DNA of 64,000 nt from Bradyrhizobium archetypum. GTDB lineage: Bacteria > Pseudomonadota > Alphaproteobacteria > Rhizobiales > Xanthobacteraceae. Numbering within the stretch: the first letter of the stretch is position 1; the number at the start of each line of letters is the position of its first letter. Where the stretch lies: positions 434,001-498,000 of the forward strand of contig NZ_JAAVLW010000003.1 in NCBI RefSeq assembly GCF_013114835.1, written 5' to 3'. Both the position numbers and the translations under genes were made by a program. The notes below the pieces were generated by a model. That model worked only from the letters and a program-made list of their open reading frames with translations, was not told where the DNA came from and made no database searches. Shown piece by piece: positions 11,565 to 12,673 of the stretch.

Positions 11565-11586
11565 TGCTGACAGCATGTTGGCAGCA
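11565..11586. promoter_or_regulatory. Candidate operator 1 for the YafY-type regulator
   Basis: A 22-bp near-palindrome: TGCTGA, then CAGCATGTTG, then GCAGCA. It begins 35 bases upstream of the regulator start codon. It matches the site at 11877-11898 at 20 of 22 positions, including the same asymmetric A/G in the arms. Two copies at two divergent promoters mark it as a likely binding site for the regulator. Confidence 0.65.
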
Positions 11587-11633
11587 GTGGGTCGGTATAC
11601 CCGGACAACACCTCAAGTGAAGGGAATTTGTCC

Positions 11634-11882
11634 ATGACGATTTTCAGCGAATTCGACCTCCGGCGAAGCCGCGCACCTCTGGTAAATGCCCGCGGATTTG
11701 CATTGGAACAACTGGTTTCCATCCACTGCGTCACGTCAGATCTGCGCTGGGCGATGCTTGAGCTGGCGTGGCGGTCGGTCACGGCGATGTGCGCTTTTGC
11801 GCACGCGCAGCTTGTCTCGTGGGTGCGCAGGGCCCGTGCGCCGCGGGCGGAGGAAGCCCGCGGCCGCCATTGTTGCTGCTGA
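11634..11882 (+). CDS. Possible small protein between two operator-like sites
   Basis: An 82-residue frame from the ATG at 11634 with AAGGGA 8 bases upstream, so translation is plausible. It begins MTIFSEFDLRRSRAPLV, contains a mildly hydrophobic middle and ends in a Cys triplet. Its 3' end runs into the second palindrome, which argues against strong conservation. No known motif; it could be a spurious frame in the leader region. Confidence 0.3.
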   Translation: MTIFSEFDLRRSRAPLVNARGFALEQLVSIHCVTSDLRWAMLELAWRSVTAMCAFAHAQLVSWVRRARAPRAEEARGRHCCC

Positions 11883-11898
11883 CACCATGGTGGCAGCA
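11877..11898. promoter_or_regulatory. Candidate operator 2 for the YafY-type regulator
   Basis: A 22-bp near-perfect palindrome: TGCTGA, then CACCATGGTG, then GCAGCA; only the sixth and seventeenth bases fail to pair. It ends 46 bases before the start of the metaxin-like GST gene and matches the site at 11565-11586. Confidence 0.65.
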
Positions 11899-11944
11899 GG
11901 GGGGCGCTAGCCTCGGGAACGTTCTTTGAGATCGGGAGACCAGC

Positions 11945-12673
11945 ATGATCACCCTTTACGGCTTCGGCGCCGGTTTCGGCCTGCCGGAGATCAGTCCCTT
12001 TGTGACCAAGACCGAGGTCCAGCTCAAGATGGCCGGTCTTGCCTATCGCAAGGAGAAGGCCAAGCCGCCGGCCTCGCCGAAGGGGCAGTTGCCCTACATC
12101 GTCGACGAGGCTGAGACGATCGCCGATTCCACCTTCATTCGCGCGCATCTGGAGGCCAAATACGGTTTCGATTTTGATGCGCCGCTCAGCCTGCAGGCGC
12201 GGGCGCAGGCCTGGGCGTTCGAGCGCATGATCGAGCACCACGTCTACTGGGCGCTGGTCGGCGCACGCTGGGTCGACGGCGATAATTTTGCCAAGGGCCC
12301 GTCGCATTTCTTCGACAGCGCACCGGTGCATTTGCGCGAGAAGATGCGCGAGGACGCGCAGTTTCGCGTCGCCGAGAATTACCTCTTGAGCGGCCTCGGC
12401 CGCCACGCACCCGAAGAGGATGTCGATCTTGCCATGCGCTCGCTGTTTGCGCTCTCGGTCCAGGTCGGCGACAAGCCGTTTATAATGGGGGAGTCGCCCT
12501 GCGGCCTGGACGCGACCGCGTTCGCCATGCTTGCCGGAATCCTGACGCCGTTCTTCGAGTCGGCGCTGCGGCAGCGCACCGAACAGTTCGCCAACCTCAC
12601 CGCCTATGTCGATCGGATGATGCTGTTGTACTATCCGGAATTCGCCTGGGCGCCGGTGCAACAGGCCGCGTGA
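11945..12673 (+). CDS. Glutathione S-transferase family protein, metaxin/FAXC-like
   Basis: 242 residues. The N-terminal thioredoxin-like domain reads MITLYGFGAGFGLPEISPFVTKTEVQLKMAGLAYRKE, then KGQLPYIVDEAETIADSTFIRAHLE, where the Pro and the Glu/Asp-Ser pair mark the glutathione-site loop of the metaxin-like GST branch. The C-terminal helical domain (about 85-235) carries GLDATAFAMLAGIL, matching the N-capping box region. AGATCGGGAG precedes the ATG. It is divergent from a YafY-type regulator and shares its operator-like palindrome, suggesting a substrate-inducible detoxification gene (inference). Confidence 0.87.
   Translation: MITLYGFGAGFGLPEISPFVTKTEVQLKMAGLAYRKEKAKPPASPKGQLPYIVDEAETIADSTFIRAHLEAKYGFDFDAPLSLQARAQAWAFERMIEHHVYWALVGARWVDGDNFAKGPSHFFDSAPVHLREKMREDAQFRVAENYLLSGLGRHAPEEDVDLAMRSLFALSVQVGDKPFIMGESPCGLDATAFAMLAGILTPFFESALRQRTEQFANLTAYVDRMMLLYYPEFAWAPVQQAA

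Follow-up and report, generated by a model that had tools for sequence, protein, structure and literature searches.

Among WYL-domain transcription factors with described DNA sites, DriD of Caulobacter acts at a bidirectional promoter shared by its own gene and a divergent operon, and its targets function in DNA repair. According to the available text of that report, its site overlaps the -35 region at a constant distance from the -10 element, at promoters with a poor -35 (PMC12340889). Mycobacterial PafBC is presented in the accessible parts of its literature as a WYL activator that uses a -26 element and gives no shift of double-stranded DNA without polymerase. The portion available to us gives its promoter type as tTGTCRgtg-8nt-TannnT and reports that uvrB expression was down 37% in a PafBC mutant (PMC5656591). 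SiwR of Mycobacterium smegmatis, as far as the accessible sections go, is a WYL activator encoded beside genes of a superfamily with thiol S-transferases among its members and sometimes beside a glyoxalase-like gene; it has a short palindrome upstream of the -10 element and requires the -26 region (PMC10693628). BrxR is described in the available part of its report as a WYL repressor of a phage defense island with inverted repeats near its own gene (PMC9122601). Sources available in part also indicate that a C-terminal WCX domain is present in most, not all, WYL-domain transcription factors and that the Trp-Tyr-Leu motif is confined to a subset of the WYL family. Our searches of the open PMC literature brought up few YafY/WYL operators, and a testable consensus is offered here. 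Judging from what these searches listed, no WYL/YafY regulator with this operator and no GST/GFA/PaaI/uvrB regulon in Bradyrhizobium was among the results.

The window, a stretch of 64,000 nucleotides from Bradyrhizobium archetypum, contains a WYL regulator gene and a divergent glutathione S-transferase (GST) gene with two 22-bp palindromes between them (Table 1). A check of the window sequence found operator 1 to be TGCTGACAGCATGTTGGCAGCA and operator 2 to be TGCTGACACCATGGTGGCAGCA. The pair is present as a first-pass annotation had claimed, in the same orientation and identical at 20 of 22 positions. Internal symmetry extends to 9 of 11 base pairs in operator 1 and 10 of 11 in operator 2. 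Operator 1 is 34 bp from the ATG of the regulator (11530, minus strand), and operator 2 is 46 bp from that of the GST (11945). The arm asymmetry that had also been noted is common to both sites here, but it does not hold generally: the two arms are alike in many japonicum-type GST sites (TGCTGCCACCATGGTGGCAGCA). With up to one mismatch allowed, TGCTGNCANNNNNNTGNCAGCA matched twice in the window; 100 dinucleotide shuffles gave 0.02 matches on average and never two. The organism's own genome (7.0 Mb) contains four exact places, where base composition predicts ∼0.03, and two more with one mismatch; a backwards control pattern matched nowhere.

Table 1. Features of the regulator-GST locus, in window coordinates
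Feature	Coordinates	Strand	Basis or remark
HTH_11-WYL (YafY-type) transcription regulator, 232 aa	10832..11530	-	Pfam HTH_11 and WYL
Putative operator 1, 22-bp palindrome	11565..11586	+	-43 to -22 of predicted rightward promoter into small ORF
Predicted -10 TATACC, small-ORF promoter	11596..11601	+	TA at +10/+11 after operator 1
Conserved leader, GGACAA...TTGTCC just before ATG	11603..11633	+	Both arms in 76/81 loci
Small ORF, 82 aa, stop overlaps operator 2	11634..11882	+	Conserved ATG position, dN/dS, DLRWA-type motif
Putative operator 2, 22-bp palindrome	11877..11898	+	-43 to -22 of predicted GST promoter
Predicted -10 TAGCCT, GST promoter	11908..11913	+	TA at +10/+11 after operator 2
Glutathione S-transferase (GST_N_4/GST_C_6), related to epoxide-conjugating GSTs	11945..12673	+	Pfam

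The regulator matches HTH_11, an N-terminal winged HTH domain, at residues 6 to 60 (1.7e-16) and WYL (PF13280) at residues 145 to 202 (1.1e-9), both above the Pfam cutoffs. Only 30 residues lie beyond the WYL match, which leaves no room for a WCX domain. The Trp-Tyr-Leu letters themselves are absent, with VRIL at positions 178 to 181 when compared by eye with the WYL consensus. Because the motif is restricted to a subset of the family, their loss does not decide membership. R179, R192, R195, and R198 are invariant in an alignment of 18 chosen from the 81 orthologues and are candidates for a positively charged groove of the kind in which WYL-domain factors bind single-stranded DNA or another ligand. 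The nearest solved chain by sequence is PafC (E value of 1e-5, residues 64 to 207), and none of the five solved-chain sequence matches at E values up to 1 is named DriD. An AlphaFold model made from 18 close orthologues had a pLDDT of 51, too poor for use. The GST scored 151.9 bits against the NCBIfam equivalog model for IsoI, the isoprene-epoxide GST, which is below the cutoff of 300; StyI was the only solved chain that its sequence matched (4.5e-20).

Both sites were found upstream of the regulator at all 80 orthologue loci fetched (85 to 100% identical; 79 titled Bradyrhizobium and 1 a Hyphomicrobiales MAG), with a single mismatch in one site of L020. The first-pass annotation had held that its operator proposal would fall if the palindromes were absent at orthologous loci; both copies were present at every one. 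Across 149 genomes of the family, 28 encode a regulator at least 56% identical, and exact TGCTGNCANNNTGNTGNCAGCA is found in 24 of these and in none of the 121 that lack such a regulator (Fisher P = 6e-24, relatedness uncorrected). The backwards control pattern had no match in any of the 149. The four exceptions (G127, G036, G080, and G045) have sites with one or two mismatches upstream of the regulator. Within one genus, G140 is without site and regulator, and G026, G066, G088, G107, and G124 have both. Outside the genus, 21 relatives (L103 to L123) divide into 6 with two sites and 15 with one clear site. At the one-operator loci, the gene divergent to the regulator encodes a GST in L109 to L117 and L119, a GFA protein in L118, L120, and L121, and a VOC protein in L122 and L123 (GFA and VOC confirmed by Pfam); the site stays beside the regulator even where the neighbor differs. 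On this comparative evidence, the palindromes are very probably the operator of the adjacent HTH_11-WYL regulator, part of a dispersed conserved regulon, in agreement with the earlier proposal of a specific operator for this regulator type.

No GST, GFA, or VOC neighbor is present at L124 (50% identical) or L125 (45%), the two most divergent loci among those fetched; L125 has an MFS-like ORF by inspection. At L124 (G143:C265), the regulator homologue contains one in-frame stop and is possibly decayed, and a TCCTGACA-type site with two mismatches lies beside it.

Paralogues that are ∼44% identical have the same half-sites separated by N5 rather than N6 upstream of their own starts (by eye, at least 6 of 20 loci). 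An exact N5 match is present in 15 of the 149 genomes, with a homologue within 1.5 kb at 9 of 15 loci; in four of those nine (L319 to L321 and L324) the site is beyond the 3' side of the homologue. Among the seven genus genomes in the set, only G064 and G138 have an exact N5 site, and they are the two with a second homologue. This sister regulator clade (L302, L303, L306, L309, L310, L317 to L322, L324, L328, and L329), with a site by its own gene, appears as a second, parallel regulon. At the order level, 10 of 20 inspected loci with exact N6 sites, in other families, lack a regulator homologue within 1.5 kb, and these sites may reflect chance or other factors. TA was found at +10 in at least one direction at 8 of 10 order-level sites with a homologue within 1.5 kb versus 1 of 10 without.

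Sites also occur in trans. In the organism's own genome, they precede a PaaI/4HBT thioesterase gene and a GFA-domain gene, and a DUF1127 gene (L005) is preceded by a one-mismatch site at the standard -10 spacing. The same spacing is seen in G122 (L218) at a gene for a DUF1127-type small protein that scored 22.2 bits, just below the Pfam cutoff of 23.3. The 43 trans loci inspected, 3 from the own genome and 40 chosen from 17 genus genomes among the matches listed, include 41 in seven families (PaaI, 13; UvrB, 10; GFA, 9; EamA, 4; DUF1127, 2; VOC, 2; SDR, 1, among those matches) and 2 that were not placed in a family. Outside the 43 are the trans sites of G064 and G086, one of G205, two more of G122, and the one-mismatch own-genome place L178. 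A MutY-type gene (HhH-GPD plus NUDIX_4) that adjoins the own PaaI site was rejected as a target, as it is transcribed towards the site.

Protein searches blind to the sites were carried out in 31 genus genomes and found PaaI in 29 and GFA in 19. All 19 GFA loci have an exact site, and all 29 PaaI loci have a site within two mismatches (19 exact, 8 with one, and 2 with two). UvrB gave a locus in 30 of the 31 genomes, and an exact site was found at 17 of the 30, or 17 of the 26 that were readable (in L245 to L248 the match falls short of the start and the upstream region is unreadable). The uvrB sites occur in one clade, and the palindrome is missing at 9 of the 26 readable loci, including that of the own genome. 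Seven of these nine promoters (L240 of the own genome, L231, L236, L238, L239, L241, and L242) have CTGACA half-sites as a direct repeat 10 bp apart at roughly the position of the palindrome, possibly a precursor or variant operator. In each of the 26 readable loci (L219 to L244), a -10-like CATATT starts at a distance of exactly 12 bases upstream of the uvrB start codon, which suggests a leaderless mRNA. The uvrB site lies ∼50 to 60 bp above CATATT (49 to 52 or 61 by count); helical phasing of this site was considered and dropped because these distances form no clean series.

The position of the site relative to a -10-like TA is nearly constant. TA is found at +10/+11 after site 1 in the rightward direction at 81 of 81 loci and after site 2 towards GST at 81 of 81. 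From site 1 towards the regulator, TA is found at 0 of 81 Bradyrhizobium-type loci, and we rejected on this ground a similarly arranged promoter for the regulator at site 1; operator 1 may still affect the regulator's own leftward promoter. In trans, TA at +10/+11 was observed for PaaI (29/29), GFA (19/19), EamA (4/4), DUF1127 (2/2), SDR (1/1), and one of two VOC sites, the other (L193) having TC, and for none of 10 uvrB sites at +10. The fixed placement is shared by seven gene families, with uvrB as the exception and VOC split. In other genera, the target-side site is followed by TA at 20 of 21 loci, L123 having CA, and site 1 of L104 to L108 is followed by CA, not TA. Five of the 15 one-site loci (L114, L116, L117, L120, and L121) have TA in both directions, which makes self-activation of the regulator possible in these lineages and weakens the idea of autorepression. 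If the TA is read as -12/-11, the palindrome covers -43 to -22 and would lie over the -35 region with its proximal arm over -26. Transcription from the two rightward promoters is predicted to start near 11608 and 11920. By inspection only, the central hexamers under the sites, GCATGT and CCATGG, are unlike the -35 hexamer TTGACG. This placement matches the geometry of the WYL activators DriD, PafBC, and SiwR, which favors an activator.

As far as the available parts of those reports allow comparison, the predicted site resembles that of DriD in its position over -35 and its fixed distance to -10. In contrast, the DriD consensus is ATACGAC-N7-GTCGTAT, its architecture is 3HB-WYL-WCX, and its targets are didA, bapE, recJ, and dnaG. 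The arrangement TGNCAGCA-9nt-TA recalls the PafBC promoter type in its proximal half-site and spacing, and PafC is the closest solved chain; PafBC, however, is a heterodimer with WCX domains and a non-palindromic site, according to the sections available, whereas a symmetric site and a WCX-less protein are found here. The likeness to SiwR lies in a short palindrome upstream of -10, its predicted placement over -26, and, for SiwR, neighboring genes from a superfamily that includes thiol S-transferases, and the differences, again within the accessible text, in its 19-bp imperfect palindrome, its DinB/YfiT-superfamily targets, and its occurrence in Actinobacteria. BrxR is likewise a WYL regulator with inverted repeats near its own gene, but it is described as a repressor of defense genes with 11-bp repeats and a 5-bp spacer below the predicted -10. 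By Pfam name, no defense family is found here among the 41 assigned trans sites of the 43.

Site 1 points to an ORF between the two operators. Its ATG is 46 to 48 nt beyond operator 1 in 81 of 81 loci, and its length is 77 to 108 aa in 73 loci and 39 to 47 aa in the 8 loci with 115/116-bp spacing. In four classes of equal-length ORFs (12, 16, 13, and 7 sequences), the median pairwise dN/dS was 0.29 to 0.45 and the pooled pN/pS was 0.34 to 0.60. A DLRWA-type motif keeps its D36 and R38 in every one of 28 sequences chosen from the 81, none of them from the eight 115/116-bp loci. A similar ORF is found between the sites in two further genera (L103; L104 to L108), and the ORF has no Pfam match at E values up to 1. 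Where its stop overlaps operator 2, the distinct spacings are all 0 mod 3; where it reads through operator 2, they are 2 mod 3 except in L063 and L090, in which the ATG is displaced by one base, matching their spacing. In the read-through class, operator 2 encodes part of the C terminus, and the stop codon comes from the GST -10 region. Operator 1 seems to drive a small, unrecognized gene. As one clear site is the more common state outside the genus (15 of 21 loci), the arrangement of two sites around this ORF is probably derived.

The GGACAA...TTGTCC inverted repeat in the leader is a candidate operator, RNA hairpin, or start-site constraint. In the 115/116-bp class (L048, L054, L055, L057, L059, L064, L065, and L071), the ORF starts with MMILYG or MIILYG, like MITLYG of the GST, hinting at a duplicated promoter and gene start. 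The N terminus of the small ORF and that of the GST have 2.3 of 10 residues alike versus 1.0 when shuffled, a value reached by 23 of 2,000 shuffles (relatedness uncorrected); this is no more than suggestive of a duplication of the GST promoter and start.

The ORF could instead be no gene at all: it might belong to a leader that is transcribed, or be what remains of a duplication of the GST promoter and gene start. It evolves fast, with a pooled pN/pS of up to 0.60 in one class, has no Pfam match, is short and unlike the others in the 115/116-bp class, and has a GST-like N terminus, and one antisense frame is also open in 56 of the 81 loci. We nevertheless consider this unlikely, as the reading frame is maintained while the spacing changes, the median dN/dS is 0.29 to 0.45, and the DLRWA-type motif is found in three genera. 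The same ORF bears on the model of the first-pass annotation, in which the operators serve two divergent genes and a DNA loop could bridge the 312 bases between them. A pair of like-oriented sites, present at each of the 80 fetched orthologue loci, would suit such a loop; the spacing, however, varies from 115 to 362 bp without 10.5-bp periodicity (Rayleigh P ∼ 0.8, 19 distinct values, relatedness uncorrected) and preserves reading frame rather than helical phase, one clear site is seen at 15 of the 21 loci from other genera, and the gap is occupied by an ORF and a predicted promoter. Looping is therefore unsupported, and we give this model very little credence. Nor is it supported that the sites simply serve two divergent genes, since a conserved ORF lies between them and the TA of site 1 always faces that ORF and never the regulator.

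Repression is a more serious alternative: at these same promoters, the regulator would keep RNA polymerase from the -35 region until a ligand caused the regulator to be released. An operator that covers -35 fits a repressor as well, and BrxR is a WYL repressor with inverted-repeat operators. A repressor, however, would not need a base-exact distance to -10 in seven gene families, no -35-like hexamer was seen beneath the site by inspection, and the far-upstream uvrB site would repress poorly, so that we regard repression as improbable, though less so than looping. Occupation of the 22-mer by some other DNA-binding protein is at least conceivable, since the operator was assigned to this regulator from sequence alone and its half-sites are common to the paralogue clade with the N5 spacer. 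The genome-by-genome co-occurrence of site and regulator (24 of 28 versus 0 of 121) and the persistence of the site by the regulator when the neighbor gene changes make this highly improbable.

We favor, as a likely overall explanation of these sequence patterns, a WYL-regulator operator through which a dispersed detoxification and repair regulon is activated. The operator would be TGCTGNCA-N6-TGNCAGCA, probably bound by a homodimer. Once activated, the regulator would sit on the -35 region of promoters that have no good -35, with the promoter-proximal half-site at -29 to -22, and would recruit or adapt RNA polymerase, as DriD, PafBC, and SiwR do. The genes switched on would be those for the GST, the small ORF, the PaaI-type thioesterase, and the GFA-domain protein, with uvrB and genes for an EamA transporter and VOC, DUF1127, and SDR proteins as lineage-dependent targets. 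The sites, their conservation and co-occurrence with the regulator, the genes downstream of them, the fixed spacing to a -10-like TA, and the small ORF are all seen in sequence; from these patterns we infer binding by this protein, activation, control of its own gene, and the signal. Counting against this explanation are the off-geometry uvrB sites and the lack of the palindrome at 9 of 26 readable uvrB loci, the TC of L193, the CA of L123 and of site 1 in L104 to L108, the two trans sites without a family, the exact N6 sites that have no homologue of the regulator nearby (10 of 20 inspected, within 1.5 kb), the absence of the W-Y-L residues, the poor structure model, and the coverage of -35, which would also suit a repressor, given that the WYL repressor BrxR exists. 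The small ORF, the trans regulon, and the placement over -35/-26 go beyond what the first-pass annotation contained.

GST, GFA, and VOC targets point to thiol-dependent detoxification, and uvrB points to adduct repair. Together with the parallels to SiwR and PafBC, these targets suggest electrophile or genotoxic stress as the signal. Our leading guess is that the inducer is a reactive electrophile or the resulting DNA damage, sensed via the WYL domain; single-stranded DNA as the ligand of that domain is possible but somewhat doubtful.

Together, these results mean that the regulon can be read from genome sequence, as each of the 60 genus genomes searched has exact sites, that the placement rule (site at -43 to -22) predicts activation, that a paralogue clade uses the same half-sites with a spacer one base shorter, and that a probable small gene had gone unrecognized between two operators. 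Tentatively, and with slightly less than even confidence, we propose that the WCX-less short WYL regulators of the Alphaproteobacteria may form a class of homodimeric, -35-replacing activators with a fixed palindrome-to--10 rule. This class would here govern a non-SOS response to electrophiles and adducts that couples GST/GFA/VOC, uvrB, and a fast-evolving small protein frame-interlocked with the next operator. If the inducer is genotoxic, rhizobia would own a WYL-controlled damage and detoxification response alongside SOS.
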